Origin: Candidatus Nanoarchaeia archaeon
GTDB lineage: Archaea; Nanobdellota; Nanobdellia; Woesearchaeales; JANQNE01
Direction: 5' to 3'
Assembly: GCA_028279725.1 (NCBI GenBank)
Contig: JANQNE010000001.1
Coordinates: 62,001-126,000 of the forward strand
Length of the DNA: 64,000 nt
The notes beneath the pieces are model-generated. The model worked only from the letters and a program-made list of their open reading frames with translations, ran no database searches and was not told where the DNA came from. The translations under genes were made by a program, and so were the position numbers. Of this stretch, positions 7,230-42,950 are shown piece by piece (the first letter of the stretch is position 1; each line of letters opens with the position of its first letter).

Positions 7230-7564
7230 TCGATTCCTATACTTTCGGAACTTTTGTCGTCGATGGTAAGAAGCTTGATTCTAATATTGTTCTGATAAAC
7301 AACATTGTTAAGCCAGCACGCTATCTTGAAGGCCATCTTCTGAGGGAATCTGATTTTGATGAACTCATATCAGCAAAGCCAGAGATAATAATCATAGGAA
7401 CTGGAGCATCAGGAGTTGTACAGGTCCAGGAAGAGATAAAACAACTCATAGAAAGCAACAACATCAGATTAATAATAGAAAAAACAGGAGAGGCATGCAA
7501 CACTTACAACGATCTGATAAAAAAACAGAAGAAAGTATGTGCATTCCTCCATAATACTTGTTAA
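7226..7564 (+). CDS. Mth938-like domain protein (DUF498 family)
   Basis: A 112-residue protein matching the Mth938/NDUFAF3-like fold: YTFGTFVVDGK near the N-terminus, then a strand EIIIIGTGASG and the helix-strand VRLIIEKTGEACNTYNDL-type ending. Family members are small; the archaeal role is undefined, though the eukaryotic relative NDUFAF3 assists complex I assembly. It is translationally coupled to the basic protein (4-nt overlap) and its stop overlaps the convergent gene by 4 nt. Confidence 0.78.
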   Translation: MIDSYTFGTFVVDGKKLDSNIVLINNIVKPARYLEGHLLRESDFDELISAKPEIIIIGTGASGVVQVQEEIKQLIESNNIRLIIEKTGEACNTYNDLIKKQKKVCAFLHNTC

Positions 7565-8598
7565 GCAGCTAACTTCTCATTTTTATGATAGCCAATCATC
7601 CTCTCTAACTTAGCCATCTCTGCATCTATTATCTTGAAAGCCTTATCTAGATGCTTATGTATCAGCCATTCCTTTCTCATCTCATCACTAAGATCCCAAA
7701 CAGCCTTCTCCAATCTGCTTTCCCACTCAACATCCTTTGTATTATGTTCATGAGCCATCATCTTCATCTCTAATCTTTCTAACCAGGTTGTATCTTCTCC
7801 TTCTAATTTTTGCCTCACAGGATTGACAAAATTCTTTCTCAAATACGTAACAAGATCTTTTCTCTCCTTCATAGACATGCTCATCTCATTTATCCCCTCT
7901 ATTTTCTTCATAAGATGTTTTTCCCATATATTCCTGATTTGCTCATGCTTCAATATTCCCAGATGCTTCCTTGTATGCACGATTATCCAGTTAAGCTCCT
8001 TAAAATGCTTTACAGTAAGCTTGCTGTTCTTCTCAACCCTGGCAAATCCTTTCTTATCTTTCAGTATTGCATTCTCTTCCTTTAACCTATCATCAAACAG
8101 CTTAAACAGATCTTCCATCTCATCCTGCATCATCATTATCTTGCTCTCTAAAGCATGCAGCTGATTCATAACAACTCCTTTCTTCTTCAGCTCTTCTTCA
8201 TCAGCCTTAAGCAACCCACTTACCTCTTTCATCTCTTCAATATCCTTTTTCTTCTCTTCCATAAGTTTCTCGTCGAGATTCTGCAGTTTTTTATTCAACT
8301 CTCTAAGTCCTTCTTTTCCAAATATCATATCCATAATCTTCTCTGAAGCATATATCTGCGATGTCTCAGTAACACTCTTCAGCTCATCAGAAAGATTTTT
8401 TATGATCTCTTTCTTCCTGGCCAATAGCTCTCCAACTTTCTTCTCCTCTAGTTCCTCTTCTCTTTCTCTTTCATCTAGTTCAGCTTCCTCCTCCTCCAAT
8501 GTCTTGTTTTTCTTCGAAAATAAAGTTGTAAACAGATCTAAGATTATGAAAATCGCTCCTCCTATTTCCAGCATCCATTCTTTGATCTTATTTATCAT
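7561..8598 (-). CDS. N-terminally membrane-anchored coiled-coil protein
   Basis: A 345-residue protein with no recognised family. One hydrophobic segment (about residues 13-30) is followed by a charged coiled coil (about 35-185, very rich in Glu and Lys) and a C-terminal helical domain with several His and Trp residues (185-345). Topology suggests a membrane anchor with a cytoplasmic rod. It overlaps the upstream ribbon-helix-helix gene by 11 nt, so the two form an operon. The composition resembles the coiled-coil proteins at 16.5-21 kb, with which it may work. Confidence 0.65.
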   Translation of the reverse strand: MINKIKEWMLEIGGAIFIILDLFTTLFSKKNKTLEEEEAELDEREREEELEEKKVGELLARKKEIIKNLSDELKSVTETSQIYASEKIMDMIFGKEGLRELNKKLQNLDEKLMEEKKKDIEEMKEVSGLLKADEEELKKKGVVMNQLHALESKIMMMQDEMEDLFKLFDDRLKEENAILKDKKGFARVEKNSKLTVKHFKELNWIIVHTRKHLGILKHEQIRNIWEKHLMKKIEGINEMSMSMKERKDLVTYLRKNFVNPVRQKLEGEDTTWLERLEMKMMAHEHNTKDVEWESRLEKAVWDLSDEMRKEWLIHKHLDKAFKIIDAEMAKLERMIGYHKNEKLAA

Positions 8599-8749
8599 TC
8601 TCTTTCATTTTCCTATACTTCAGAATTAGATCTCTGATCGCTTCCCTGGTTATCTCAGCCTGATTATCGAAGATACCTTCATCTATCAGCTTCTGTAATT
8701 CTTTCTTCAAACCTTTCCCTATCCTTATATGCAGTAAATCTCCAGGCAT
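8588..8749 (-). CDS. Ribbon-helix-helix (CopG/Arc-like) DNA-binding protein
   Basis: A 53-residue protein. A short strand (LLHIRIGKGL) is followed by helix A (KKELQKLIDEG), a turn (IFDNQAEITREAI) and helix B (RDLILKYRKM), the classic ribbon-helix-helix order. I place the start at 8749 because a TATA box (8773-8782, preceded by CGAAAG) lies about 27 nt upstream; an in-frame ATG at 8767 is too close to that box. It overlaps the downstream coiled-coil gene. The palindrome ATACC-N4-GGTAT lies beside its promoter, so it is probably the regulator of that site (inference). Confidence 0.72.
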   Translation of the reverse strand: MPGDLLHIRIGKGLKKELQKLIDEGIFDNQAEITREAIRDLILKYRKMKENDK

Positions 8750-8772
8750 TATATCAATCTGATACATCTACA

Positions 8773-8787
8773 TTTATAAACCTTTCG
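8773..8787 (-). promoter_or_regulatory. Promoter of the ribbon-helix-helix gene: CGAAAG BRE plus TATA
   Basis: On the minus strand the sequence reads CGAAAGG then TTTATAAA, a BRE-like element followed by a TATA box. The same CGAAAG plus TATA combination occurs at 23959-23972 and 24061-24076 upstream of the large operon. Confidence 0.55.
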
Positions 8788-8816
8788 TAATATTAGAGCA
8801 TAAATATATCATTCCT

Positions 8817-8830
8817 ATACCTAATGGTAT
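8817..8830. promoter_or_regulatory. Operator palindrome ATACC-TAAT-GGTAT
   Basis: A perfect inverted repeat between the divergent promoters of the ribbon-helix-helix gene and the membrane protein gene at 8884. Variants of the same palindrome occur five more times at 23775-24055. A second palindrome (ATATCTTAAGAGATAT) overlaps the TATA region of the rightward gene near 8857-8872. Confidence 0.6.
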
Positions 8831-8883
8831 ATCATATTGATATATTAGAAACTTTTAAATATCTTAAGAGATATCATTAAATC

Positions 8884-9339
8884 ATGGCAGAGACAATAAT
8901 CATAAGCCCGCTTATAACAAACCTTTTAGCGATCGGCATTGTAATCTTAGTTGTTTCAACACTTCTGCTTCCAAGGATGATAAGACACCTAGTTCACAGC
9001 ATCATCCTGATTGCTTTTGGCATCATCCCGATCTTACACAGTTACAAAATGATCGGTTTCAACATCCCTTCATGGCCTATTGTTGGCTATGCGTTAACAG
9101 TCATCATAATTTTATCAGGAAGAACTCTTATCGTAGACGGATTTAAAGAGGAAAACAGAGCACTTAAATTCCTCACTATAGCAGCGGGCTTTGTCATAAT
9201 TTTAGTGGTCACAATCCCGACATTGTATAATCTGGGAGCAATAACATTCAACTTAACATACCCCCCTATAATAAACAACATACTCTACATGTCAGCAGGA
9301 GTTCTGCTTCTTATAGGTACTATGATTCTAAAGAATTAG
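8884..9339 (+). CDS. Small polytopic membrane protein (about five TM helices)
   Basis: A 151-residue, almost entirely hydrophobic protein with predicted membrane spans near residues 8-28, 35-52, 63-83, 94-113 and 126-148. The motif AFGIIPILH resembles AFGALPILH in the convergent neighbour (9361-9759), suggesting distant paralogues. The start fits a leaderless mRNA from the TATA-like CTTTTAAATATC near 8851-8862. It is divergent from the ribbon-helix-helix gene across a shared operator. Function unknown. Confidence 0.62.
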   Translation: MAETIIISPLITNLLAIGIVILVVSTLLLPRMIRHLVHSIILIAFGIIPILHSYKMIGFNIPSWPIVGYALTVIIILSGRTLIVDGFKEENRALKFLTIAAGFVIILVVTIPTLYNLGAITFNLTYPPIINNILYMSAGVLLLIGTMILKN

Positions 9340-9360
9340 AAAAAAAAAGAAAATAAAAAA

Positions 9361-9759
9361 TTACATCTCCATTGCGAATGTTGCAATCATCAGGAAGATT
9401 CCTTCCACAATAAAGATGATCTGATACACGATTGCCTTAATGAATTCTAGCTTGAAAATTGCAGGCAATATATCAAATCTGGCCAGTATCTGCAGTACTC
9501 CTGTCAGCACGATTGCTGCTGCCAGAAGAAACGAAAACCAACCGATCGGATTGCTGTTAGTAATCTCAATAAATGAGTTTATTATCAGATAGAAACCGAT
9601 AGCTGCCATGATATAGGCGAATATTCCTATAGGAACACTCTTATCAAAGGCAAAGAATGCCGGTCCTATTCCGAACTGATTGTGCAGTATAGGCAGTGCA
9701 CCGAAAGCTGCAACAATAGCTCCAACAAAGAAGCTTACCCAATCTTTCATCTCCATCAT
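9361..9759 (-). CDS. Small polytopic membrane protein (about four TM helices)
   Basis: A 132-residue hydrophobic protein with spans near residues 10-27, 43-62, 73-92 and 108-130. It shares the FGxxPILH motif with the protein at 8884-9339. A GAGGTG ribosome-binding site precedes the start. It is the last gene of the minus-strand series that begins at 23.8 kb and follows the 318-residue protein gene after 18 nt. No known family recognised. Confidence 0.6.
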   Translation of the reverse strand: MMEMKDWVSFFVGAIVAAFGALPILHNQFGIGPAFFAFDKSVPIGIFAYIMAAIGFYLIINSFIEITNSNPIGWFSFLLAAAIVLTGVLQILARFDILPAIFKLEFIKAIVYQIIFIVEGIFLMIATFAMEM

Positions 9760-9777
9760 TGTAAAACACCTCTTTTA

Positions 9778-10734
9778 TTATGTTGCTTCAGCTAATGCTG
9801 CTTCTGTTTCTTTCTCTTTAGCTATAAGCTGATTTAACATCAATTGCTCATTCTTCAATAAACCGTATATCTCATTAAGATTTTTCCTTTCTTCAACACT
9901 CAATCCTTCTCCCATATTCTTTGGGATTATATGCTTTGCAATTGCTTTATCATTTACTGCAATTATTGTCAGGAAAGGATCGATAACTTCCTTAACATGC
10001 ACAAATATGTGCTCAGCTATATACAGTAGATTCTTGATATCTTTCTCGATTAGGTCAGGAAGATTTTCCAGAGCATCAAAGAATTTCTTCTTAAGTACAG
10101 GAATCTGCTTGTTTACAGCAGCACTTTTGCTGCCAAATGCATTCAAAGCTTTCTCAACAATCTCAAACACCTGCTCAATCTTCCTTTCTTCTCTCACCAT
10201 ATCTCTGATATCTCTTCTTACTACAAACTTCTCAACCATATCTGGTGGTGGAGATTTAAACATCAGCTTTGCATTAAAAGCTCCTTTTGTAGCCTGCTCT
10301 AATCCAAATATTTCACTAAGTAATTTCCTAAGTGTTGCAAGCTCATGACCTTGTTTTGCAAGTATATTCTTAGCAAGGTCCTTCAGCCTGTGGAATTCTA
10401 CATCACTGTGAGCTTCCTTAAACATCTTTTCTCCTTTTAGGATGCCTTCTCCGATCTTCTCGCAGATCTCTAGCTCGTTCTTCGCCATAAGCAGTGTGTT
10501 GAATATCGCTTTAGAATAATACACTCCAAACTTATGTCCGTCAGAGATCATAAGTTTCTGCACTTTTTCCTCATTCTCAAGATCATATCTCTTAAGATTC
10601 TCAAGCGCATCCTGCAGCCCTCTCTTTACCTTACTTCTGCTGGTCAGTGTCTTTTTATAATCTGAGTAAGTAGGTATACTGTAACCTAATGCCAGTTTTT
10701 TGTTCTTTAATCCTAAAATGTGCTCTCCAGCCAT
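9778..10734 (-). CDS. Soluble alpha-helical protein of unknown function
   Basis: A 318-residue protein with no signal peptide or membrane span, predicted almost wholly helical. It has a conserved-looking block FKSPPPDMVEKFVVRRDIRD near residues 163-182 and a Glu/Lys/Ala-rich C-terminal helix. A GAGGTG ribosome-binding site precedes the ATG. It sits between the 570-residue membrane-anchored protein upstream (129 nt apart, containing a hairpin) and a small membrane protein downstream, so it is likely the cytoplasmic partner of an envelope complex (inference from context). Confidence 0.6.
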   Translation of the reverse strand: MAGEHILGLKNKKLALGYSIPTYSDYKKTLTSRSKVKRGLQDALENLKRYDLENEEKVQKLMISDGHKFGVYYSKAIFNTLLMAKNELEICEKIGEGILKGEKMFKEAHSDVEFHRLKDLAKNILAKQGHELATLRKLLSEIFGLEQATKGAFNAKLMFKSPPPDMVEKFVVRRDIRDMVREERKIEQVFEIVEKALNAFGSKSAAVNKQIPVLKKKFFDALENLPDLIEKDIKNLLYIAEHIFVHVKEVIDPFLTIIAVNDKAIAKHIIPKNMGEGLSVEERKNLNEIYGLLKNEQLMLNQLIAKEKETEAALAEAT

Positions 10735-10763
10735 CTTTTTTCACCTCAAAATTTTAATTTTGT

Positions 10764-10790
10764 GGTGCCAGAAACTTGTTTCTCAGCACC
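10764..10790. repeat. Intergenic hairpin of the CCAGAAA/TTTCTCAG type
   Basis: GGTGC-CAGAAAC-TTG-TTTCTCA-GCACC forms a hairpin between two minus-strand genes. A relative with the same CCAGAAA and TTTCTCAG core but a different outer stem lies at 34514-34547. The preserved core with changed stems points to a structured RNA element or processing site. Confidence 0.5.
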
Positions 10791-10862
10791 TCAACTTTTT
10801 GTTCGCCTCTTTTTGATTTTTATCCTCTGATTTATTTAAACCTTTTGCAAGATTCATGAACA

Positions 10863-12572
10863 TTACAATCCTTCTTTTTCAGCCCATTGATCCAAGACCT
10901 TTTTCTCATTTTTCTTTTTCTTTTTCTCTTCTTGTGCCTTTTTGATGCTTTCTGCAGCCTCTCCACCAGCCTGCTTTAATTTCTCAGCTGCATCGCTTAA
11001 CATCCCCTTTCCTTTATCTAGAGCTGACTTCGCTCCTTTATTATCTCCTTTTCCTGCTTTTGCTTTGCTTGCTTCATGCCATGCTTTTATTTTTCCTAAC
11101 TGATCCCATATCCTTCTAGCAAACGGAATCTTGTCCCAGTTGCTTCTAACTATCCTTTCTATGGCTCTTAAAAAGTTCTCTTCTTTCTCAACTTCTGCAA
11201 ATATCTGGGTCATCTCTTGCATGTCTTCTAATTCAACATATATCTCCTTAGGCTTCATAGTCGGAAGATCATCCTCTACAGATCTCATATCTTTCATCAG
11301 TTCACCAAGATCCACCTTGCTGTCTTTAAGGAATTTAGCAGCATTATATTCTATGTTAAGCAGATTATTCATCCTTTTGTTCAATATCTCTATCTTACCT
11401 TTTTCTTGCTCAACATTCTTTGAATTAAGCCTGCTGATCAAGAGAAGGAATGCATTCACGATCTTATCTTCATTCTCGATAGTCTTCTTCAGATTATATA
11501 CTTGTGGTCTAACATCTCCATAATATTTAATCAGCTTTATCAGTGCCTGCCCTATTTCACTATCTTTATCAATCACTTTCTTAAGTTCTTCATCTAATCT
11601 TCTTACTTTACCCAAATCCTGAAGACCAGTCTGCAATGTCAGTATTCTTCTTAACCTCTCTTCAAAATTCTTTATCTCCATGACTTTCTTATTCTCTGCA
11701 TTCAGTAAGACTTTTATCTCTTCTACCTGTTCATTAGATTTCTTAAGGTTCTTATCAGCTGATCTTGATAACAGTTCATTATATGATTTTATCTTGTTCA
11801 GATTATCCCCTAGTTTGGTCTTTTGAGGATCTTTATTCAATAATGCCTTAAGCAATTCAACTTCCTCATCACTTAATCCCAATTCTTCCTTAAATTTACC
11901 AACAGTCTCCTCAAATTTCTTAGCATCCCCTGTTTTATAAAGATCTAAAAGCGCACCTTTCAGCTTTCCTTCTGCACTCTTGATCATCTCAGATAGATTA
12001 GCTGCTTCTTCTGTATTGCTTGCTGCGATTTCTTTCTTCTTCTCTATCAGAGCGATCATATCATCCACTCTAGGACCCTTCTTGATCATATCCAATACTC
12101 TGTCAGCATCTCTTTTAACATCAAACTTAGCCTTCCCTTTTCCACCTATTTTATAGGTTATAAGTCCAGTACCGCTAATGGCTAAAACAACTATCGCTAT
12201 CGTCCAGATAGGGAAACCTTTCCCATCATCTGCTGGTGCTTCTTCTCCAGCAGGAGATACTTTCAATGAATCAGTGACCTGCCAGATATATGGCTGGAGA
12301 CTGATCATCCTTTCTTCAGCTCTGGTTATCTTTTCTTTTGTCTCGTCTGTTACAGAATCTGTCCCATAAGCTTTCTGCATCTTTGTCCCAACTTCCTGGA
12401 TTGAGATATAATGCAATACATCATCAGCGATTTGTATTGAATCAGCCTCTTTCTGAAGAAATTGATTTAGTTTAGCCTTCTTCTCTTCACTCAGCTCTTC
12501 TTCACCTATTGCTGAAAAGCTAAAGACTATCAAGATCATCATACAGATTCCGATCAAAACATTTCTTCTCAT
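10863..12572 (-). CDS. Membrane protein with exported N-domain and long cytoplasmic helical domain
   Basis: A 569-residue protein starting at 12572, one base after the upstream stop. Residues 1-22 look like a signal or first membrane span (ICMMILIVFSFSA). A small external domain follows, then a second span at about 120-140 (WTIAIVVLAISGTGLI). The remaining 430 residues are highly charged and helical and end in a Lys-rich tail. No family recognised. Signal and span architecture closely parallels the protein at 17477-19285, suggesting that the block uses several bitopic rods. Confidence 0.65.
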   Translation of the reverse strand: MRRNVLIGICMMILIVFSFSAIGEEELSEEKKAKLNQFLQKEADSIQIADDVLHYISIQEVGTKMQKAYGTDSVTDETKEKITRAEERMISLQPYIWQVTDSLKVSPAGEEAPADDGKGFPIWTIAIVVLAISGTGLITYKIGGKGKAKFDVKRDADRVLDMIKKGPRVDDMIALIEKKKEIAASNTEEAANLSEMIKSAEGKLKGALLDLYKTGDAKKFEETVGKFKEELGLSDEEVELLKALLNKDPQKTKLGDNLNKIKSYNELLSRSADKNLKKSNEQVEEIKVLLNAENKKVMEIKNFEERLRRILTLQTGLQDLGKVRRLDEELKKVIDKDSEIGQALIKLIKYYGDVRPQVYNLKKTIENEDKIVNAFLLLISRLNSKNVEQEKGKIEILNKRMNNLLNIEYNAAKFLKDSKVDLGELMKDMRSVEDDLPTMKPKEIYVELEDMQEMTQIFAEVEKEENFLRAIERIVRSNWDKIPFARRIWDQLGKIKAWHEASKAKAGKGDNKGAKSALDKGKGMLSDAAEKLKQAGGEAAESIKKAQEEKKKKKNEKKVLDQWAEKEGL

Positions 12573-12573
12573 T

Positions 12574-14814
12574 TTATGGTATTGAATTAAAGGCAACATA
12601 ACCTTCAACTACAGTCTTAACAGCCTCAAAATTCTGGACTATGTTATCTTTTGTAACACCTCTATCTAAGATTTCCTTAGCTTGATCACCGCTAGGTTTA
12701 GTGGAATAGAAGGTAAGAGCTTCTTCAATCAATTCCTTGGTTTTACTGTCTAAGATTCCGCTGTCTTTGACCTCAGGTTTCCACTCCTTAAGCAAATTCT
12801 GCAGCTCTTTTATCTTTGGATCACCTTGAGGTGCAGCTGTAACTACCTCCTTCATAACACTACTCAACTTACTAACTGCACTGCATTTAGTCAGATGTAT
12901 TGTATCTCCGCTTCTAACTCTTGCCCTCTTAGCGCTTGCAGGTATTCCAGCAGGAAGATCCTTGAAATAATAATCAGCCCCTGTCTTAACTAATTCAAAA
13001 CACTTCCCTGTAACCTCAAACCTGTACTTCTTACCATTGATCTCAACATTACCCAATGCACTAGGGACACTCTTGTACGTTATCCATATAGGGCTCTTTC
13101 CATTAACTTCTCTTATATTCTGTATCCTGTGATTAGCATTTGCAAGATGCACTTTTCCATTTCCATCTATACAGGATTCTGTAGCATGAGGGCATCCGTC
13201 TTGTGTAGGTTCTGGAGCAGCTTCTCCTTTCTCGATATGGAAATTCCTTAGGCTATCTTCAGATGGTGTTGTAATCTCTTCTTCACTTGTTTTATAGCCT
13301 GTTTTAGACAATGTAATTGTTATTTTTTGATCAGATACTATATTTTCAAGCTTATAGACTCCTTCTGCATTGGTTGTAGCATCTCTAATTACGCTTCCAT
13401 CTCTTTTTGCAACTAGCTTAACACCTTCAAGAGGCTTGCTAACTCCAGCTCCCTCATATACAACTCCAGAAACACTGATAACCTTCTGTGAAGTATCTTC
13501 CTCTTTCTTAAGTATAAATGTCTCTTCCTCAGGCTCATATCCAGCTTTGACCTGTCCTACAGCTGTTGCAAAATGAGGCTTGAAATATATCGGATCTTTC
13601 TCAGGACTCTTTATACTGGATATCTCATCTTCTCTTATGATTACAGGAACCTTTACAGTAACTTCATATACTTTTTCAGGAAGCACAGAATAATCAAAAG
13701 TTGTCTTTCCAGTACTTGTTTTTCTATCAAACCTAAGGTCTCCGTCAAAATCCCACTGATACTCTCCAACAACTTCATAATAATCCCAGAACCCATCATC
13801 AATATCTGCTGTAAATGCGATCTGATTTCCTTCTTCTGGTTTAATCACCAGTTCATGATCAGGATATGACCTGAATATCTTCCATACACTCTCTCCAACA
13901 TTGCTTATCTCCCAGGTTTCAGTAGTTGGGTTGATAACACCGCTGACACTAACAGTCACAGTGCATCCATCCTTCTGATCACATTTATCCATAAGATATG
14001 AATTGCTTATCTCACTGATACCTTCTCCATTAAAGCTCCAGTCATATTTAACATCTCTATTCTCGTTATCAACAATAACCTTGAACTCCTGCGATTCATC
14101 TGTAAACAGCTGTATATTTCTCTCTTCTGGAAGATATCTTACAACTTTTGCCTGAGGTATCACAACTCCTCCAACCTGTATTGTCCAAGTAAAATTAGCT
14201 ATACTCTCTCCAACACAAATATCCTTTCTGCCTCTCAATACCTTTAACTTCAGTTCATATATCCCTTCTTTTGGCTTGTGGAACAATCTAAAGTTAGCGT
14301 TCTCTGCTTTCTGCTGCCCTTCATCTTCCCAGCAGAATGTTATATCTTTCTCATACTCTCCTTCAACCTGCCCTAATTTCTGCACAATAGCCTCAAATCT
14401 CATATCTTCTTCAATTCCAAGATAATGTGTAGTTCCATCTTCAGGTATAGGTGTAACGTACAATAACCTCTCTGCATTCAATGTTGTCTCTCCTGGTAAT
14501 TTCTCCTTGATCAGTTTCCATGTTTTAGGAGCATCTTTATACTGTATATCTCTATCGATCAGCTTCTTCTTGAAATTCAGCAAAGTTCTTATTCCACTTT
14601 CATCAAGATCCTTTCCCAAAGCTTCGATCCTCTTGCTCATCTCATTATCTATTATCTCTAGAGCTATCTTCTTCAGTTCATCTTTCTCTTGAGCACTCAT
14701 CTGATCAACATCTTTTCCTTTAAGCTCATCAAATTTACCAAGATCTATAGCTCCACACACACTTGAAACTAACATGATCATCATACACATTCCGATTATA
14801 ATACTCTTTCTCAT
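12574..14814 (-). CDS. Large exported protein with PKD-like, carboxypeptidase-regulatory-like and possible PG-binding-like domains
   Basis: A 746-residue protein with a signal peptide (residues 1-22, IIIGMCMMIMLVSSVCGA). The middle contains two PKD-like Ig folds (VKYDWSFNGEG; VGEYQWDFDGDLRFD), then a carboxypeptidase-regulatory-like beta sandwich (residues about 460-535, SGVVYEGAG through KTGYKTSEEEI). A Cys-containing domain follows, then a C-terminal segment (KIKELQNLLKEW, SGILDSKTKELIEEAL) resembling small peptidoglycan-binding-like helical domains. No catalytic motif is visible, so a structural or adhesive surface role is likely. It overlaps the upstream gene by ATGA. Confidence 0.68.
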   Translation of the reverse strand: MRKSIIIGMCMMIMLVSSVCGAIDLGKFDELKGKDVDQMSAQEKDELKKIALEIIDNEMSKRIEALGKDLDESGIRTLLNFKKKLIDRDIQYKDAPKTWKLIKEKLPGETTLNAERLLYVTPIPEDGTTHYLGIEEDMRFEAIVQKLGQVEGEYEKDITFCWEDEGQQKAENANFRLFHKPKEGIYELKLKVLRGRKDICVGESIANFTWTIQVGGVVIPQAKVVRYLPEERNIQLFTDESQEFKVIVDNENRDVKYDWSFNGEGISEISNSYLMDKCDQKDGCTVTVSVSGVINPTTETWEISNVGESVWKIFRSYPDHELVIKPEEGNQIAFTADIDDGFWDYYEVVGEYQWDFDGDLRFDRKTSTGKTTFDYSVLPEKVYEVTVKVPVIIREDEISSIKSPEKDPIYFKPHFATAVGQVKAGYEPEEETFILKKEEDTSQKVISVSGVVYEGAGVSKPLEGVKLVAKRDGSVIRDATTNAEGVYKLENIVSDQKITITLSKTGYKTSEEEITTPSEDSLRNFHIEKGEAAPEPTQDGCPHATESCIDGNGKVHLANANHRIQNIREVNGKSPIWITYKSVPSALGNVEINGKKYRFEVTGKCFELVKTGADYYFKDLPAGIPASAKRARVRSGDTIHLTKCSAVSKLSSVMKEVVTAAPQGDPKIKELQNLLKEWKPEVKDSGILDSKTKELIEEALTFYSTKPSGDQAKEILDRGVTKDNIVQNFEAVKTVVEGYVAFNSIP

Positions 14815-15872
14815 TTGTTCAGTTTATCAAAAGCATCTAATGCTTCTTTCAATAAGTCTCTTTCAGCAGGAGGTTTTTCTCCTTCCTCTCCAACATCTTC
14901 AGTTGGTTGTGTAGGTTGAGTAATCACTTCACCACCAGGTGTTATAACTTCTCCTGAAACACTGGTTGTCTGTCTTCCACATTCAGCCTGTAATTTTATC
15001 CTATCTTCTTCCAGCTCTTTTATTCCATCATCAGCACCAAATCCACCTTCAATTACTTTCTTCAATGAATTTACATAACCTTTCAATTCTGCTGCCTTAG
15101 GCTGGTCTTTATCTCTAAACCTTCCTTTAGTCGGAGGATATTTCTCGACTATCTTATTGTTCATATCATTAACAGTAACATCAGTTACATCCTTCCAAGT
15201 AAAATCACTAGTGACAACTTCTGGAATCTCCTGGTTCAGTTTAGTTATCAGCTGCTTAGCTTCAGCCAACTTACTCTGTATCTTATTATTCACCAAAGCA
15301 AGCTTCTCATTACATTCTAGCTCTTCTTTTGTAACTCCTGAAGCAAGATCTGTTCCAAGTGTAGAATCTCCCAGCTTCACAAAGAAGAAGAACAACAGCA
15401 ATGTAGTTGGCACTGCTAAAGCAAATGACCATCCAGCTTTCATTCCAAACAGCCTATTATATACGAAGAATACAGCTATAACTACCCCAAACACAACTAG
15501 ATTCTTTACAAATGGTATAAAGAATGAAACACCCATTCCTGCTCTCATAGCAGCGATCGCTAATGCAGCAGCCAGAGCTATTGCTATTCCTTTTGCAGCT
15601 CCGCCACCTTCTTTCATCTGCTTCTTCAATCCAAGTGCTGCAGATCCTAAGAACAGCAGGAAGAATATAAAAAAGTCAATCACAGCAGCATTGTTATCAT
15701 ACCATGCCATTCCTGTATTTTCCCTAACTTCAACATCTTTCTTGCTGAACATACCAAGTATCTTGTCTAATGCACCACCAGCCTTACTTCCTAATGATGC
15801 ATCAACTGACACAGCCACCATACTGACTAGGAAGATCGTCAACAATCCTAATACAACTAATCTTTTTCTCAT
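14811..15872 (-). CDS. Signal-peptide polytopic membrane protein
   Basis: A 353-residue protein with an N-terminal signal (1-26) and four or five hydrophobic segments between residues about 60 and 175, including an Ala-rich pair, followed by a soluble helical region and a Pro/Thr/Glu-rich tail. It is reminiscent of inner-membrane channel components of secretion machines, but I cannot assign a family. Its start overlaps the stop of the winged-helix gene (ATGA), and its stop overlaps the start of the 746-residue gene, so all three are translated from one message. Confidence 0.62.
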
Positions 15873-16216
15873 ATGTATTCTCCTTTATTTTTCTTGACCA
15901 ATTCCTTGATCTCTTTCAAGACTTCTTCACTAGCATTCAAGCTAACTTTCTTTCCTATTGAAGGTATAATAATAAAAACAGGACCTTGATCAAGACTATA
16001 CTCTGTAAATGGCCTTCCCCTTCCTTTCTTGATCTTCTTTGTTTTCTTTACAATACCAAGATCCATCAGTCTGGACATAAAATTATCAATATTAGCTACA
16101 CTCATATCAAATTTCTTAGCAAGTTCTGTCGGAGTAGCATTGCCTTTGCTAAGTTCATCTAGAATTAACCAAACTGTATCCTTTCCTAATGTTTTCAGCA
16201 CTCTTTCCATATCCAT
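15869..16216 (-). CDS. Winged-helix transcriptional regulator (ArsR/MarR-like)
   Basis: A 115-residue protein with a typical winged helix: [21 protein letters not shown], then a recognition helix [18 protein letters not shown] and a wing with [13 protein letters not shown]. Upstream lies a 300-bp array of near-identical AT-rich words (16217-16521), which is probably its operator. It is the first gene of the second half of the minus-strand block and overlaps the following membrane protein gene, so it likely autoregulates this transcription unit (inference). Confidence 0.75.
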
Positions 16217-16521
16217 AATTACTCAATTTATTAAATTAATAAATTGACTATTTAAATGTTTCTATTAGTTAACTAAATTAATCAATTGAATAATTAAATA
16301 TAACTATCCACATAATATTTAATAAAATAATTAATTGAATAATTAACTTAACTCCTCAAAAACTAATAAAAACATCTAATAATTAAATTAATAACTTTAA
16401 TAATTAAATAATTAACTAAATACACAGATACTATTTAATGAATTAAACAATTTAATAATTAACTAATTTAATAATTACACTAGGATTATTAATAAATTAA
16501 TTAACTGAATAATTAAATAAA
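16217..16521. promoter_or_regulatory. AT-rich operator-like array (ATTGAATAATTAA family)
   Basis: Almost 300 bp with hardly any G or C, composed of overlapping words. AATTGAATAATTAA-type copies lie near 16283-16297, 16332-16345 and, as AACTGAATAATTAA, 16502-16515; AATAATTAA and its relatives fill the rest. It separates two parts of the minus-strand gene block and lies directly upstream of the winged-helix gene. No gene is seen in it. The best reading is an extended regulator-binding promoter region. Confidence 0.6.
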
Positions 16522-17493
16522 TCAAGCAGCCATAGAATATTCTTTCTCTTCTAATTTCAAAGTAAGTGAATCCTTGATCAATTCAACATCTGCTTTAGTA
16601 AATCCTGGCCATTTTGGCAATGTCTCCAGGAATTTTTTTATCTTTTCAGAAGGCAACGCCTCCAACTGCACCAGACTTTTGATTCCATACGGCTTAGCTT
16701 TCTCAAGTTTAGCCAGCACATGCTCATTCCTATATCCACTTAAAACTTCAACAGCCCTATCTAAAGCAGCAGCAGTCGCAGGTATCCACCCATGTACAAA
16801 CTTGTTATCTGCTCTTATTATAAGATGGAACTTCATATCTCTAAAATCATATATCTTTGCCTGATACTTCTTATGTTTCAGCACCTTATTTTTGAAGAAC
16901 TTCTGCAGCTCTTCCTCACTCATTATCTCCTTGATCATCTTAAGCGCATCTTCAACCTCAATTCCATCTTTTCCAGTGATATGATGTTCCATCGCTTTCT
17001 TAAGATCCTCAACCCTTACATTTCCAACTTCTTCTATAGATATGACTCCATCATTATAATCCAATATCTTCATACTATGCCCTTTGAACTTTAATGTCTT
17101 ATCGATAACACCTAAAATAATCTCCTCATCATCTCCTTTATTGAATTCCAGGAATACAAGCAGGTCCCCTAGCTTGATAACATTTCCTTCAACCTTCTTA
17201 GCCATCTTCTCTTTCCTTTCTTCATACTCTTCAATATCTTCTGCTTTCTTTCCGAGATCACCCATCTCATTTATCATGCCATTTGCAAACTTATACTCTT
17301 CTGTAGCCTTTACAACAAGCTCCTTCCTATTCTTCTCAACCAGTTCACCATCTCCTTTCTTAAGGCCAGCTTCCATCTCATCAAGATTCTTTTCCATCCC
17401 TTCTATCCTTTCTATAAATCTGTCAGTCTTCAATATAGCTTTATCTATCAGCCCAACTACATATTCTCTTATCTTCTCAATCCTCGGATTCAT
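16522..17493 (-). CDS. Soluble helical protein of unknown function
   Basis: A 323-residue protein without membrane spans. Residues 1-110 are coiled coil; 115-180 look like a small alpha/beta domain (ILGVIDKTLKFKGHSMKIL); the C-terminal third is helical with a Trp-Pro-Gly loop. I choose the start at 17493 because GGAGG lies five bases upstream; it then overlaps the preceding gene by 17 nt, implying translational coupling. It ends just before the AT-rich operator array. Cytoplasmic member of the envelope block, function unknown. Confidence 0.6.
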   Translation of the reverse strand: MNPRIEKIREYVVGLIDKAILKTDRFIERIEGMEKNLDEMEAGLKKGDGELVEKNRKELVVKATEEYKFANGMINEMGDLGKKAEDIEEYEERKEKMAKKVEGNVIKLGDLLVFLEFNKGDDEEIILGVIDKTLKFKGHSMKILDYNDGVISIEEVGNVRVEDLKKAMEHHITGKDGIEVEDALKMIKEIMSEEELQKFFKNKVLKHKKYQAKIYDFRDMKFHLIIRADNKFVHGWIPATAAALDRAVEVLSGYRNEHVLAKLEKAKPYGIKSLVQLEALPSEKIKKFLETLPKWPGFTKADVELIKDSLTLKLEEKEYSMAA

Positions 17494-19285
17494 TCTTTCC
17501 TCCATCCTTAGGGCTCTCTATCCTCTTAGGTTCTTCAACTGCCGGTTCTTCTTTAGTCCTAATCTCTCTTAATTCTTCCTCAACATTCTTTATCTCTTCA
17601 TCAATAAATTTCAACTCTTTCTGATATTGTTCCCCATTCATTCTACTAGCTCCCCTTCTATAATCTCTGATAAATCTCTTCTTTCTTTCATTAAGGCTCT
17701 TAAGATCCTCTTCAAGATCCTCTGCCTCGCTCTTTTTCTCTCCCCTCATATCTCTTTCTAGTTCTTCTATCCTCTCATTATAATCCTTAACAACTTCTTT
17801 TGCATCACTATAACCAGATGCATCTCCACCTTCTACTTTTTCAGTGGACTTTTTGATAAATTCAGCTCTTTTCCTTTTTAATTCCTCAAGCTCAATTATT
17901 TTCTCCTTCTCTTCTCTTGCTATCTTTTTTATCTTCTCCTCTTCCTTAGCAAAATCCTCTGGTGATATCTCCTTTCTTTCTAATTTCTTCTGGAGTTCAA
18001 CATAATCCTGTGCAGCTTTCATCACTCTTTCATTTTCTTCAAATAATTCAACTAATCTTTCTTTGTCCGCTTTATTTTTAGCTGCCAAATCTTTTTTCTG
18101 CTTTTTTATCAGAGCTTTGTTGTTCTTAACTCTCTCTTTTATCAGCTTTTTCTGTTCCTTTGGAGGAAGCTTTTTCTCTTCATCAGTCAGGAATACACTT
18201 TTTTTCAACTCCCTCCCTTTCAGATAAAAAAGACCATTCTTGAAAGCGATAGCTCTCCCCTTTAAAAATCTCAATATAGTCCTTCCTCTTTTGACCTTTA
18301 CATCGGTATCGACTTTTTCGCTAAACAACTTGATGATCGCAAGGAACAGATTCCTTATTATAACCCAGGGCATTGTAAGCAATCCCAATATTATGCCTTT
18401 AATGGGCAGTTTCCCCCATAGTTTCTTTATACCTTCTTTAGCAGGCCACCATATCGGCTTTGTCAAACCTTTCCCGACCTTAAAGGCAATTGCAACTGGC
18501 TTAAATATCATAGACAGGATAAATATAACCATTGCGATCAAGAACAGTATCCCTCCCCATTTAATCCAAGTCCCATATTTCTTTAATTTCTTTACTGTCT
18601 TAGCTCCTTCATCAATAGCATCAGCTTCTTCCTTATTTCCCAGGAATCTCATTATTCCTGTATATTTCTGGACTTCATCATCAACATCTTTTACTTTATC
18701 TTTTTCCTCACCAGTCAATGTAATATCTATCAACGGCTCAATCTCTTTCTCATCATATTTTGAAAAAAAGATAGTATCTTTTTCTCCATCAACAACCTGA
18801 TCTCTTTCATCAGCTCTCTTGAACTCAGTGATATAGTCCAGAACTTTTGTTGCCTGCTCTTTTACTTTCTCAGCTTCAGCATGCATACCATAATATCCTA
18901 CAATCTCGTTCTTATCTCCTTCCTCTATAAAGCTTGCAAGTATAAGGCTCTTATCTTTTATACTCCTCACAAGATTGATCTTCTCGTCATAGAATTTGGT
19001 AAAATCCTTTCCTACTTCAGGACTCTTGTATAGGTTATAACTGACTATAAGATCCTTTAGTTCATTATAATCATTGTTTGCCTTCTGATATCCGGTGGCT
19101 GTAGAAGGTTTCGAAACCGTTTTCTTAACTTCTCCAGCAGCCTTTCCTCCTGCTTCTTTCAGTTTTTCCAGTCCTTCTGCAGCTTTCTCTCTCAATTCTT
19201 TCAGGCTTATCCCTTCAGCAGCATAGCTAACTGCACCCAACAGAACGACGATTACAAGTATCCATACGATGATCTTTTTATCCAT
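17477..19285 (-). CDS. Bitopic membrane protein with long cytoplasmic coiled coil
   Basis: A 602-residue protein. The start at 19285 gives a good N-terminal signal or anchor (KKIIVWILVIVVLLGAVSYA); an upstream in-frame ATG at 19333 would place 16 charged residues before it. A GAGG motif precedes 19285. Residues about 25-230 form an external helical domain, two hydrophobic segments lie near 245-270 and 300-330, and the final 270 residues are an extremely charged coiled coil. No family recognised. It overlaps both neighbours, so it is coupled within the operon. Confidence 0.65.
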   Translation of the reverse strand: MDKKIIVWILVIVVLLGAVSYAAEGISLKELREKAAEGLEKLKEAGGKAAGEVKKTVSKPSTATGYQKANNDYNELKDLIVSYNLYKSPEVGKDFTKFYDEKINLVRSIKDKSLILASFIEEGDKNEIVGYYGMHAEAEKVKEQATKVLDYITEFKRADERDQVVDGEKDTIFFSKYDEKEIEPLIDITLTGEEKDKVKDVDDEVQKYTGIMRFLGNKEEADAIDEGAKTVKKLKKYGTWIKWGGILFLIAMVIFILSMIFKPVAIAFKVGKGLTKPIWWPAKEGIKKLWGKLPIKGIILGLLTMPWVIIRNLFLAIIKLFSEKVDTDVKVKRGRTILRFLKGRAIAFKNGLFYLKGRELKKSVFLTDEEKKLPPKEQKKLIKERVKNNKALIKKQKKDLAAKNKADKERLVELFEENERVMKAAQDYVELQKKLERKEISPEDFAKEEEKIKKIAREEKEKIIELEELKRKRAEFIKKSTEKVEGGDASGYSDAKEVVKDYNERIEELERDMRGEKKSEAEDLEEDLKSLNERKKRFIRDYRRGASRMNGEQYQKELKFIDEEIKNVEEELREIRTKEEPAVEEPKRIESPKDGGKNESED

Positions 19286-20939
19286 AAACCTCTCCCTTAG
19301 CTTTTTCTTCAGATCTTTCCACAACCCCTTCATGGATTACATCAACCTTTTTCTTGAATTCCTTATCTTCTCTTATTATACCCAGCCTATTTCTGATCTC
19401 TTTATACTTCTCCTGAACCTTTCCTTTTCCATAATACTCTTTTTTCAGGAGATCATCTATCTTTAGCCATCTTTCAAATATCTCTTTCACATCTTTGATT
19501 ATTACTCCCTGTCTCTCAAGTAACAAGGAGATATCGATCCTTCTCCTCCTTATCTTGTCCTGCATGATATAAATCTGGGTTATCTCTTCTCTGGAGAAAG
19601 GCCTTCTTTCCATATCTTTTAGATGTACCAGAAGTTCTTCTGATTCAGCTTTATCTTCTTTTATCATCCTATCATAATTGTCTCTTATACTTTTCAGCTC
19701 TTCAATATATCTGTTAACAATTTCATTCTCTTCCCTGCTTCCAAACATCTCATTAATCAGGCCCTGTGCTGGTGTAGTGACAGCGATAAACTCTTCTCTT
19801 CCTTTCCACCACTCTTCAACCAGCTTCTTCTTCCTGTCTATAAGAACATCAGTAAATTGTTTCTTCACTTTCGCCTTTACCTTCTCTAATTCTTTTATCC
19901 TTTTATCCAGAATATCTTTCAACCTTCTCTTTGCTTTTGCTCTTGCGACTGAAAGCTCTTTCCTCCTCTCCTCTAATATCCCATCTAATGCTGTTATCGC
20001 TTCTTTCTCTACTAAAGATGAATATTCATTGCTCTTCTCCATATTATTTATCCAGCCAGCCAAAACCAGAAGTATCTTTTCTCTGTTTTCATGGAAATTC
20101 TTCCACTGTTCTATTATTTTAGCCCCTCTAAGATCCCCATATCTTTCTTCAAATATCTTTGCATATCTATCCAGATTTGGAATAAGCTTTTTCCTGAAGA
20201 AATTCCAGTTATTATCATCTATCTCTATCTGCGTCTTTAGGTTCTGCACTGCTTTCTTCTCTTCTTCAAATCTTAATGCATGCCTTACAAGATGGCTTTT
20301 ATTCAATCTCTTTGTTAGGATCTTATCGTTTTCTTTCTCAAGATAATCAACATACTCTCTCAACTTTCCTATAAATTCTCTGAAATCAACACCTTCTAAC
20401 TTATCTACATGCCCTTTCACTTCATCCAGTTTTTTGCCTTCTTCATCTGTTATTATCCTCTTTAATCCATTGACTTTCTTAGCAGTTTCTTTATCACCTA
20501 ATTCTTCAATATAATTTACATATTTGCTAAAATTATCGACAAAGTGCTTGAATGATGTAGAATCAACATCTCCCAAAAGGAATTTTATTATTTCCCTCAG
20601 ATAGTTCTCTTCTTTCTGATCATGCAGATCGATCTTCTCCTTAACTTTTCTTATCTCATCAGCACCCCCCTTATCTATTTCATCAAGCAACTTAAGATGG
20701 CCATTCAATCTACCATCCACAAAAGCATGTATGTCTAGGTTTCCATGCATAAGATCATCATAGGTATTCCTCAGTTCAACTATGGCCTTTCCTTTATTTG
20801 TTTCTTTCAAGAAAGTTTCAGCAGGTCTTCTCCTGTTCTCAGAAGCGAAGAATCCATTCATATTTACTACATCCTCAACTACTTCAGTGTGGACTCTCAC
20901 ACTTTCAAAATATCTTGATTTTATATCTTCAATTTTCAT
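19278..20939 (-). CDS. Cytoplasmic coiled-coil protein
   Basis: A 553-residue protein with no signal peptide or membrane span, predicted helical throughout with long heptad-rich stretches. It carries paired tracts (LKDILDKRIKELEKVK and FTDVLIDRKKKLVEEW) that look like an internal duplication. Probably a structural rod or scaffold at the cytoplasmic face of the complex encoded by the block. Its start overlaps the stop of the polytopic protein gene by ATGA and its end overlaps the next gene by 8 nt. Confidence 0.6.
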   Translation of the reverse strand: MKIEDIKSRYFESVRVHTEVVEDVVNMNGFFASENRRRPAETFLKETNKGKAIVELRNTYDDLMHGNLDIHAFVDGRLNGHLKLLDEIDKGGADEIRKVKEKIDLHDQKEENYLREIIKFLLGDVDSTSFKHFVDNFSKYVNYIEELGDKETAKKVNGLKRIITDEEGKKLDEVKGHVDKLEGVDFREFIGKLREYVDYLEKENDKILTKRLNKSHLVRHALRFEEEKKAVQNLKTQIEIDDNNWNFFRKKLIPNLDRYAKIFEERYGDLRGAKIIEQWKNFHENREKILLVLAGWINNMEKSNEYSSLVEKEAITALDGILEERRKELSVARAKAKRRLKDILDKRIKELEKVKAKVKKQFTDVLIDRKKKLVEEWWKGREEFIAVTTPAQGLINEMFGSREENEIVNRYIEELKSIRDNYDRMIKEDKAESEELLVHLKDMERRPFSREEITQIYIMQDKIRRRRIDISLLLERQGVIIKDVKEIFERWLKIDDLLKKEYYGKGKVQEKYKEIRNRLGIIREDKEFKKKVDVIHEGVVERSEEKAKGEVYG

Positions 20940-22696
20940 TCTACGTAATAATTCTCCATCTTCCTTTGTTCACTCTCGATTTCAACTCCAAGGTTCTGCA
21001 ATATCCCGTTCACTGACTTGTTGAATGTAGGACTAGAACCGTCATAAGTGGGATTATCAGGACTTGGATCATTCTTCCTTGAATATACAAATTTATCTTT
21101 CCTCTCCTGCAGTTTTCTCAGTTCAATCTTGACATCATCTACTCTTCCTTGATTTTCATTCTGCATAGCTTCACTTAATTCCTTCAACAATACATCTTCC
21201 TTAGCCATTATTTCTCCTTTCATATCTTTTATAGTCCTGCTTCTTAGATTCCCTGACCCCCATGTAATTCCATCTATCATCTTCTGATCATCTTCAGTAA
21301 TGTCCTTCTTTCTCATCAACTCAATTCTTTGATTATTTTCTTTAGAAAGCAGCTTTGCTTCTTCACCAAACTGTTTTATCTCACCGCCGATTCTGCTTCT
21401 ATATTTTTTAAAGGCCCCTTTAGCTCCCCAACCCAGAAGATATGGTCCAACCCAGGCAGGTGATGTGGCCCATTTTAACAAAGACCCTTTCTTCTCCCAG
21501 GTCTTATCTGCTGCCTTATCTCTGACGTTGGCCATCCTTTTGCCAAAAAAAGAATTCTGACCTCCTTTGAACATACCAATCATAATTCCAAATACGAATC
21601 CAAATATGAAATTTGAGATAAAATCTCCAGTCTGAGGGAACATCGGCAGTCCAAGACCATATTGTCTAAATGTTGTAGTCGCCATCGTATGGACTACTCC
21701 AAAAGACAGTCCCCATGCCATACCTTCTCCTGTTTTATCTCCCTGCCCCGTCTGCTTTACAAATGTCTTATACAACAAGAACAACAGCACCCAATATGCC
21801 ATACCCAAAAATTGTGCTTTTCCAAGATTTGACTGCGCTGTATTTGCAGCAAACATTATAGTTAGAGCAACTCTTGCAGTCTTATCAAGATTAGGGCTAA
21901 CTATCTTAAACAGCAAGAAATATATCAGCAAAGACCCTATCAGTATAAACAGCCTCCCTCCTCTTAATATACCCCATCCTAAAAGAGGATTCTCCTCACT
22001 TGGAGAGGTATTATCAGGTCTCTCTGCTTTTGGTAGTTTGCTTGCAGCAGTATAACAGAACTTTTTGCTGTTAGCTGCATCTTTCTCAACAACTTCTATC
22101 TTTTTATCATACGATGCCACAACACCTTCTGCACTATCAACTAATTTAGTACCAAGTGGAATCTTTCTCAATCCCCCCCTTATCAGACCTTCTTCTATTG
22201 CATCACTATCATATACTTCAACTTCCTTACCTTCAATAACTGTCTTTTCTTTCTTTAGGTAACTGTTTCTAGCATCAACTAATCCATCTATCTCTGCCTG
22301 TCTCAGATCATACTCACAGTTCTTATCTCCCAAAAAATATAGAGAAGCACTTCTCACACCTTCCTTTTCCCATAAGAATTCAGTAGGCCCGATGAACTGT
22401 ATAGAAATAACTAAAGCAAATACAGCCATACCAATAAGCACTAACTTAGAATCCTTTCCAGAATAAGAAGTTCCCTTAAACTTATCAAATATCCTCACCC
22501 CTATAAATATCAGGAAGAACACACAGATTGTATTGATCAAAATTTTAACAGTAAAAAACTTCTGCCTCCATTCTTTCAGCTTCGCAGCCTGTCCTTTGGC
22601 CTTATCAGCCAATGAAGCTGCAACTACAGAACTAGTTAGCAACACAACTATCAGAATCATGATTGCAATGATCCAAAACTTCTTATTCAGCTTCAA
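20936..22696 (-). CDS. Large polytopic membrane protein, possible channel
   Basis: A 586-residue protein. An N-terminal signal or anchor (1-27) is followed by a second span (about 46-70) and a third (86-105), an external domain of about 125 residues containing several Cys, then a cluster of five or six spans (about 245-385) and a long charged cytoplasmic C-terminus. The organisation resembles VirB6/TrbL-type inner-membrane channel proteins, but I see no diagnostic motif, so this is only an analogy. It is coupled to the AAA+ ATPase gene upstream by an ATGA overlap. Confidence 0.62.
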   Translation of the reverse strand: MKLNKKFWIIAIMILIVVLLTSSVVAASLADKAKGQAAKLKEWRQKFFTVKILINTICVFFLIFIGVRIFDKFKGTSYSGKDSKLVLIGMAVFALVISIQFIGPTEFLWEKEGVRSASLYFLGDKNCEYDLRQAEIDGLVDARNSYLKKEKTVIEGKEVEVYDSDAIEEGLIRGGLRKIPLGTKLVDSAEGVVASYDKKIEVVEKDAANSKKFCYTAASKLPKAERPDNTSPSEENPLLGWGILRGGRLFILIGSLLIYFLLFKIVSPNLDKTARVALTIMFAANTAQSNLGKAQFLGMAYWVLLFLLYKTFVKQTGQGDKTGEGMAWGLSFGVVHTMATTTFRQYGLGLPMFPQTGDFISNFIFGFVFGIMIGMFKGGQNSFFGKRMANVRDKAADKTWEKKGSLLKWATSPAWVGPYLLGWGAKGAFKKYRSRIGGEIKQFGEEAKLLSKENNQRIELMRKKDITEDDQKMIDGITWGSGNLRSRTIKDMKGEIMAKEDVLLKELSEAMQNENQGRVDDVKIELRKLQERKDKFVYSRKNDPSPDNPTYDGSSPTFNKSVNGILQNLGVEIESEQRKMENYYVE

Positions 22697-23772
22697 ATTT
22701 CTTCCTCCGGATTTTCATTGATATCTCCATAGCATATCTTCTCGACAAAATATCTCAATAGCTTATTCTTGAAAGAATACACATTCCCTTCTTTAACAAT
22801 CAAATCAACAGCAACTAACCTTGAAAGAAGATTTTTGGTTACAGCACTGCTCCTGTACACAGATCTTGCAACCTCATTAAGCTTCATCTCTTTCCTGCTC
22901 AGCTTCTTAAGAATAACCCAAAGCAAAGACTTTCCTCTTGCTCTCCCTAAACTTTCATTAAGATGATCATTGAAATAATTATACAACACCCCTTTCTCAT
23001 CCAGAATCTCTTTGATAAATGAATCTCTAACATCTCCATCATATTTTTCGACCAAAACAGAAGCAGCATAAGGTATCCCAGCACTCAGCTTATAGATAAG
23101 ATCAACATCCTTTTCATTGATCCCCATACATAACTCCTTAACATCTCTTTTATCAAAGGCCCCAACTTCCTCAACTTTTATCTCCAGCCTCTTAGCGATA
23201 CCTTTCATCAGTTCTACTGCACTTCCAGCTAAAAAATAGTTGATGTATGAATGAGCTGAAGAGGAGGACTTGAATAGGGAGATGACATCATCGATCTTAG
23301 AAAAATTATTTAGATCCAATATTCTCCAAAACTCATCCATACACACTACTACTTTTCCACCAATCTTTTCCCCAATTATTTCTGGAAATTTAAACGCAAG
23401 CTCAACAAGCAATCTTTGGTCAGGACTTATCTTTTCTAATTCATTCTTTACTTTCTCAACAACTTCTTTTCCTTTCCCAAGCTTATCTTTTATCTTCTCT
23501 AAGTATCCTAATTCTAGATAATCACCAAGATTCCCCCCAAACATACCATAACACAAAGAACCGATAAACTCGATGCAGAAATCCTCCGGACTTAAGCTGA
23601 TCTTCTCAAAATCAACATAGACAGCATTCTTTTTCTTAGATATAAACTCCTTAAGAATTCTTGTTTTTCCTATGCCTTTATCGCCGACAAGACAAAGGTT
23701 CCCCATAGTTCTGTCTAACAGATTTAGCTGACTATCTCTTCCTATGATTACTGTTTTCTTTTTTTTGCCCAT
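22693..23772 (-). CDS. Archaeal-type AAA+ ATPase (STAND/MNS-like)
   Basis: A 359-residue ATPase. Walker A is GDKGIGKTRIL near residue 30, a Walker B-like strand is VVVCMDEFWRIL near 140, and a sensor-like strand follows (NYFLAGSAVELM). The C-terminal 100 residues form a winged-helix-like domain (LLWVILKKLSRKEMKLNEVARSV). This is the plan of the ATPases largely restricted to archaea (PF01637-like). The start is set at ATG 23772, not the TTG nine bases upstream. It is the first gene of the long operon and its promoter holds several ATACC-N4-GGTAT operators. Confidence 0.78.
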   Translation of the reverse strand: MGKKKKTVIIGRDSQLNLLDRTMGNLCLVGDKGIGKTRILKEFISKKKNAVYVDFEKISLSPEDFCIEFIGSLCYGMFGGNLGDYLELGYLEKIKDKLGKGKEVVEKVKNELEKISPDQRLLVELAFKFPEIIGEKIGGKVVVCMDEFWRILDLNNFSKIDDVISLFKSSSSAHSYINYFLAGSAVELMKGIAKRLEIKVEEVGAFDKRDVKELCMGINEKDVDLIYKLSAGIPYAASVLVEKYDGDVRDSFIKEILDEKGVLYNYFNDHLNESLGRARGKSLLWVILKKLSRKEMKLNEVARSVYRSSAVTKNLLSRLVAVDLIVKEGNVYSFKNKLLRYFVEKICYGDINENPEEEI

Positions 23773-23774
23773 AT

Positions 23775-23820
23775 TAACCAATTGGTATACATACCATATG
23801 GTATATTATTATTTAAACCT
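23775..23820 (-). promoter_or_regulatory. Proximal promoter and two operators of the large operon
   Basis: On the minus strand a TATA-like GGTTTAAAT (23811-23819) is followed by the perfect palindrome ATACC-ATAT-GGTAT (23791-23804) and a close variant (23775-23788), placed between the TATA box and the start codon at 23772. That position suits a repressor blocking initiation. The motif matches the one beside the ribbon-helix-helix gene at 8817. Confidence 0.6.
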
Positions 23821-24076: not shown

Positions 24077-24148
24077 TTAATAACAATCCAAAAATCCACT
24101 CGACAAAAAGAAAAACTTTTTAAACCAATCATGATTCTCCTCGTAGCT

Positions 24149-38122: not shown

Positions 38123-38149
38123 AAACCATGCATAGACTTTGAAATGAAA
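38123..38149 (-). other. 23S rRNA processing stem, 3' strand
   Basis: AAACCATG-CATAGAC (38123-38137) and GAAATGAAA (38141-38149) are exactly complementary to 41052-41066 and 41038-41046. The two helices, separated by short unequal bulges, form the pre-rRNA stem bracketing the 23S sequence. Confidence 0.8.

Positions 38150-41477: not shown

Positions 41478-42950
<1,473 letters not shown>

Follow-up and report, generated by a model that had tools for sequence, protein, structure and literature searches.

The 64,000-nucleotide stretch analysed here (the window), which is part of contig 8 of a 1.42-Mb genome, carries thirteen genes encoding an ATPase together with membrane, coiled-coil and exported proteins. 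The question raised by this locus is whether these genes specify a surface machine of their own, driven by that ATPase, or belong to something that is already partly described. The first-pass annotation had proposed the former, an undescribed envelope-spanning machine. The comparisons reported here indicate that the cluster is real and inherited among very small, host-associated archaea, not private to this genome, and that it probably represents an expanded and relocated portion of a little-known apparatus of the cell surface or of cell contact.

Organization of the gene block

The block lies between a PAC2-family gene and the gene for ribosomal protein L35Ae (rpl35Ae), and all thirteen open-reading frames were confirmed at the annotated positions (Table 1), twelve on the minus strand and one, m151, on the plus strand, as had been described. 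The overlapping or abutting gene ends reported previously were found within two tight minus-strand operons, operon A (16522-23781; ATPase-g586-g553-g618-g327) and operon B (10863-16216; wHTH-g353-g746-g581), in which genes overlap by 4-56 bp, but a gap of 305 bp separates one operon from the other. The genes h318, m132, m151 and cc345 come after operon B. The end coordinate previously given for the block, 23772, is the first ATG of the ATPase reading frame and its probable start.

Table 1 Genes of the block and its two borders, in window coordinates
Gene	Position	Strand	Description	Evidence
PAC2-family gene	6211..6918	-	One border of the slot; also borders other loci	Pfam PF09754, 1.7e-37
cc345	7561..8598	-	Single-TM or signal coiled-coil protein	TM at 9; heptad z 5.2; no family
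m151	8884..9339	+	Small 5-TM protein	Relatives L162 (4e-8) and L165 (2e-10), both near rpl35Ae
m132	9361..9759	-	Small 4-TM protein	Relatives in g353-type loci: L143 (E 3e-33), L147 (E 5e-25)
h318	9778..10734	-	Soluble helical protein	Heptad z 5.6
g581	10863..12608	-	Signal, ~100-residue acidic ectodomain, TM near 132, long coiled-coil tail	
g746	12574..14814	-	Large exported protein, CarboxypepD_reg-like domain; lineage-specific	Pfam PF13620, 5.5e-8
g353	14811..15872	-	Signal and four spans, acidic C-terminal tail predicted outside	Founding member of 5/6-TM family (alignment A4)
wHTH	15869..16216	-	ArsR/MarR-like winged-helix regulator, operon B gene 1	Pfam HTH_5, 2.4e-7
g327	16522..17505	-	Soluble helical protein, end of operon A	Heptad z 4.7; no family
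g618	17477..19333	-	Signal/TM, ~220-residue acidic ectodomain, TM near 262 and 314, long basic coiled-coil tail	Hydropathy, charge, heptads
g553	19278..20939	-	Soluble coiled-coil protein, third core gene of operon A	Heptad z 5.4
g586	20936..22696	-	Polytopic membrane protein, core family; ~8 span-length helices; acidic outside loop, basic inside tail	AlphaFold
ATPase	22693..23781	-	ATPase_2-like P-loop protein with C-terminal winged helix, operon A gene 1	Pfam AAA_14 4.8e-6, ATPase_2 1e-4
rpl35Ae	24131..24406	+	Ribosomal protein L35Ae; other border of the slot; also borders other loci	Pfam PF01247, 2.1e-15

Elsewhere in the window, archaeal 23S and 16S rRNA genes lie on the minus strand at 38140-41047 and 41479-42950 and account for a GC peak and a stretch without long open-reading frames; the 16S gene could place the organism exactly. 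A 103-base tRNA at 43543-43645 (minus strand), found by Rfam and not reported by ARAGORN, probably bears an intron. An S-layer-like protein with an S_layer_C domain (E 1.1e-8), a possible surface partner, is encoded at 61696-63948 (minus strand).

Conservation and synteny across Woesearchaeales

A profile of the ATPase matched 40 of 353 genomes of the order, in single copy as a rule with extra or fragmented matches in a few, and in a sample of the whole phylum the protein was confined to this order. A scan of a genome collection added 29 ATPase loci labelled Woesearchaeota, Nanoarchaeota or related archaea, with the exception of one contig from an Omnitrophica bin, and relatives found by name were nearly all labelled Candidatus Woesearchaeota or Nanoarchaeota. 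On the Omnitrophica-filed contig (L062), the ATPase and a g586 relative occur with peptidase M17 and oxidoreductase genes, the result of either mis-binning or transfer. A search for g586 relatives gave matches in 16 of the 288 genomes sampled from the order, with the ATPase adjoining in the loci fetched, and a g586 relative follows the ATPase directly in all distinct loci (35/35), usually with a 4-bp overlap. The earlier proposal hinged on gene order being conserved in relatives, and this pairing shows that it is. A wHTH gene is also found directly upstream of g353 in five other loci (L027, L030, L031, L040 and L067), and loci that diverge more in one of ATPase, g586 and g353 tend to diverge more in the others as well (pairwise distances, r 0.69-0.89, Mantel p ≤ 0.002).

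The chromosomal setting recurs as well. At least one of rpl35Ae and PAC2 was present in the fetched stretch of 6 of 16 ATPase-type loci and of 11 of the 20 simpler g353-type loci, compared to an estimated expectation of ~2 percent, and both borders are present in the window, L147, L160, L162 and L163. When the rpl35Ae neighbourhoods of 17 genomes without an ATPase match were inspected, further family members were found there in L159, L160, L162 and L163. We read the loci in this slot, including those that lack the ATPase, as a single ancient locus that has been passed on vertically while its gene inventory changed fast.

Uncharacterised proteins encoded close together on one strand, some of them lineage-specific, could also suggest an integrated mobile element or viral remnant, an origin that we consider highly improbable given that the GC content of the block equals that of its surroundings (0.366 versus 0.370) and that the slot is conserved. 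None of the viral contigs searched carried a relative of the ATPase, the structure search gave no viral fold match with E ≤ 0.001, and no viral structural or replication family was matched apart from two weak PHROG hits (~1e-3) in coiled-coil proteins; a viral origin was rejected on these grounds.

Two related polytopic membrane proteins

AlphaFold models of g586 and g353 were both of moderate confidence (pLDDT 66 and 69, respectively). The polytopic protein of about eight spans in the previous description is g586, for which about eight span-length helices were modelled, and the signal-bearing multi-span protein, g353, can now be specified as a signal followed by four spans. The N-terminal membrane domains of the two proteins are related (hhalign, 1.2e-8), and the g353 profile, when searched against the genome itself, finds g586 at 9e-6. 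Based on charge, the tail of g586 is predicted to lie inside, and the tail of g353 and the ectodomains of g581 and g618 outside. Matches to the g353 profile were obtained in 66 of the order's 353 genomes; many of these genomes lack the ATPase, and the matches are often tandem pairs. A broader g353 profile gave matches in 128 of 299 genomes of the phylum sample, the weak ones among which are unsafe.

Neither AlphaFold model had a PDB match with E below 0.8 in the structure search, profiles searched against PDB sequences returned membrane matches at chance level only, and no biochemical function was obtained from structure or sequence matches. The core proteins of the block likewise gave no useful match to Pfam, NCBIfam, PADLOC or PDB families. 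This, with the conserved ATPase-g586 pairing, bears out the earlier claim of a multi-protein membrane and coiled-coil apparatus without a known family, and the apparatus is conserved. An anti-phage defence system was also rejected, as PADLOC models gave no match. Type IV secretion (VirB/TrbC) was set aside, with a TrbC match of the g353 consensus at E 0.14.

OmpA-family domains, unusual for archaea, are present on the predicted outside tails of two g353 relatives, L028:9927-11324 and L030:2420-3631, which suggests that these tails may contact an envelope layer, and a further weak OmpA domain occurs in a large protein, L035:13775-17875. In three other members of the family (L136:8997-10409, L139:9960-12257 and L189:9666-12002), collagen-like Gly-Pro repeats begin straight after the last span.

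Coiled-coil and exported proteins of the block

Heptad periodicity above that of shuffled sequences was measured in g553, g618, g327, g581, h318 and cc345 (z 4.4-7.8), in agreement with the coiled-coil proteins described previously, and was not above shuffles in full-length g586. Using hhalign, g553 matched a group of 10 sequences at the same position in other loci (1.2e-10) and a second group (2.8e-7). No recognisable counterparts of g581, g618, g327, h318 and cc345 were found in other loci. Two-TM proteins of the g581 layout follow g353 in several loci with a sequence link to g581 that is not significant (hhalign), and soluble helical proteins of h318-like size adjoin PAC2 in other genomes, a positional likeness only.

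The large exported protein, g746, had been described as having PKD-like and carboxypeptidase-regulatory-like domains, of which the CarboxypepD_reg domain was recovered and the PKD-like domain was unconfirmed by Pfam at E ≤ 0.1. As large surface proteins of DPANN archaea with a proposed contact function, the SPEARE proteins of nanohaloarchaea (PMC6642349) are comparable, but the block proteins have no protease, laminin-G, adhesion or restriction-enzyme domain (Pfam, E ≤ 0.1), and an identity with SPEARE was rejected because the domains are wrong.

The ATPase-winged helix protein is probably a switch

The first gene of operon A encodes a P-loop ATPase fold, as had been predicted and as Pfam confirms, and both its Walker A (GDKGIGKT) and Walker B (VVCMDE) motifs are intact. 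This AAA-like P-loop core, with a winged helix at the C-terminal end of the protein, is the arrangement of the archaeal ATPase_2 family (PF01637; PDB 2fna, 2qen), although the PF01637 match of the window protein (E 1e-4) is below the curated cut-off. The best PDB match of the ATPase profile was 2fna (1.6e-6), an uncharacterised hypothetical protein and not a secretion motor, and Pfam gave no PF00437 (T2SSE/VirB11-type) match for this protein and no VirB4 match in the block. Unlike the ATPase_2 family at large, the block-type proteins form a separate subfamily in obligate operon with g586, with a Walker B motif that is degenerate in many members and a wHTH that is the most conserved part. Among 31 distinct homologues, the Walker A GK[ST] is kept in 25 and altered in 6, while the Walker B acidic pair is present in 8 and absent from 23, most of which show DN. 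Mean identity over the same 31 rises from 0.37 in the AAA core to 0.55 in the C-terminal wHTH region and 0.72 in the putative recognition stretch.

The frequent absence of the Walker B pair and the strong conservation of the wHTH suggest that the block ATPase probably binds nucleotide as a switch or regulator instead of serving as a motor, contrary to the earlier view that it powers the machine. The window's own copy may hydrolyse ATP, since both of its Walker motifs are kept. These results also revise the two DNA-binding proteins of the first-pass annotation: one wHTH protein was confirmed, and the alignment indicates that the second DNA-binding domain is probably the C-terminal wHTH of the ATPase itself.

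A surface or secretion machine complete in itself, with its own ATPase as the power source, g586 and g353 as a channel and the coiled-coil proteins as rods, would fit the strict ATPase-g586 operon pairing, the intact Walker motifs of the window protein and the many loci that contain, or lie next to, genes for exported and surface-type proteins. We nevertheless regard such a machine as unlikely, as 23 of 31 homologues lack the acidic pair and 6 of 31 have an altered Walker A, the membrane pair is kept without the ATPase in many genomes, and the closest structure, 2fna, points to no secretion motor.

Linkage of the g353 family to type IV pilus genes in sister orders

The A4 profile, built from 37 sequences, reaches the sister orders of the class. 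In noise controls, locally shuffled family members reached 2e-9 and reversed sequences 1e-5, and matches of the broad g353 profile with E above about 1e-9 were left out of use; the pilus-linked members, at ~7e-12 or better in the genome search, are above this noise. Judged by coordinates, 8 of the 20 sister-order genomes tested encode a CpaF/FlaI-type ATPase (~760-830 residues) no more than about 5 kb from a member of the g353 family, and no such linkage was seen in the other 12. The g353-family proteins there have a signal, 5-6 spans and often a long coiled coil, with heptad periodicity in their C-terminal parts. In L185, L186, L189 and L192, a family member is found beside a CpaF/FlaI-type ATPase and a 9-10-span protein of ~710-740 residues, which is TadC/FlaJ-like by position and layout and without a Pfam match; L186, L189 and L192 also contain arrays of single-span pilin-like proteins. 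A conserved tandem triplet of small 5-span proteins, the middle one weakly g353-family-like, occurs in L201:1473-3237, L203:7926-9667 and L205:9037-10875, and also beside pilus genes in L186, L189 and L192.

This setting is that of the type IV pilus-like loci described by Hamm et al. (2024; PMC11291902), who found, across cluster-2 DPANN, two loci that combine CpaF and TadC with coiled-coil proteins (CCPs), and proposed a role in cell-cell interaction. The membrane-proximal coiled-coil proteins of those loci have a CpaF/TadC setting, and relatives of g353 take that position in the four sister-order loci. Predicted coiled-coil domains are a feature of CCP loci, and heptad periodicity is seen in six proteins of the window and, among g353 relatives, in the C-terminal parts. 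The earlier view of the block as something apart from pili is not supported, given this linkage. The window genes differ from CCP loci in sitting in the rpl35Ae-PAC2 slot, away from pilus genes, and in adding the ATPase-wHTH protein, the g586-g353 pair, regulators and extra coiled-coil proteins. In its own order, the block does not adjoin pilus genes: CpaF and TadC are absent beside the coiled-coil genes of the window, and the block has no T2SSE ATPase, TadC/FlaJ platform or pilin family match. The genome does have a CpaF/FlaI-TadC/FlaJ-like pair of the kind found in archaeal type IV pili, Tad systems and archaella, but on another contig (contig 3; L200 10143-14625), and this pair is homologous to the one linked to g353 relatives in sister orders. 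A functional link between the block and this pair may still exist.

The same evidence bears on a cytoskeleton that would organise cell shape or the membrane, with anchors and cytoplasmic coiled-coil scaffolds holding the S-layer to the cytoplasm and with no relation to pili or partner contact. Coiled-coil periodicity, single copy number with vertical synteny, and OmpA domains, which are envelope anchors in bacteria, on the outside tails of g353 relatives are consistent with such a role. Against it stands the proximity, in sister orders, of g353-family genes to CpaF-TadC-like genes and pilin-like arrays, and the rapid divergence and varying exported proteins point to an interaction with the cell's exterior; we consider this role doubtful, if less so than an ATPase-driven machine.

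A proposed apparatus and its significance

Given the above, our preferred reading, to which we assign a probability of about one half, is that the block is a lineage-specific, enlarged version of a class-wide DPANN membrane and coiled-coil apparatus, by descent a partner of CpaF-TadC, to which an ATPase-wHTH switch has been joined. The related polytopic proteins g586 and g353 would form its core. The g586 tail would face the cytoplasm, where g553 and probably g618, g327 and g581 would assemble into a rod-like scaffold beneath the membrane; outward would face the exported g746 and the tail of g353, tying this scaffold to the S-layer or to the surfaces of partner cells. With a type IV pilus-like CpaF-TadC machine as the ancestral partner, any mechanical work would more likely be done by CpaF. 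The P-loop/wHTH protein would act as a nucleotide-dependent switch over expression or assembly, and the small wHTH protein would regulate operon B. In a more specific form, which we put forward tentatively, the block may constitute a distinct Woesearchaeales cell-surface contact machine, an apparatus of its own derived from the CCP system, with a g586/g353 base, a cytoplasmic coiled-coil rod and an outward adhesin module, gated by the AAA-wHTH switch of the same operon.

The proposed apparatus would be a variant of a partly described kind, and the spanning of more than one membrane and the channel, both part of the original envelope-spanning machine, are unsupported. Its ATPase-bearing version does appear to be undescribed, as no description was found in the literature searched. 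Few candidate genes exist for the way in which DPANN archaea make contact with their hosts, stay attached and exchange material, a question that has long been open. The present work delimits a family of 5/6-span proteins with coiled-coil tails that occurs throughout the class and is tied to the pilus motor in sister orders, and indicates that one large order keeps such loci at a constant chromosomal position while the surface proteins encoded there vary. It also guards against an easy misinterpretation, in that the ATPase is probably a switch and not a motor, and offers ATPase-g586-g553 as a specific operon open to testing.
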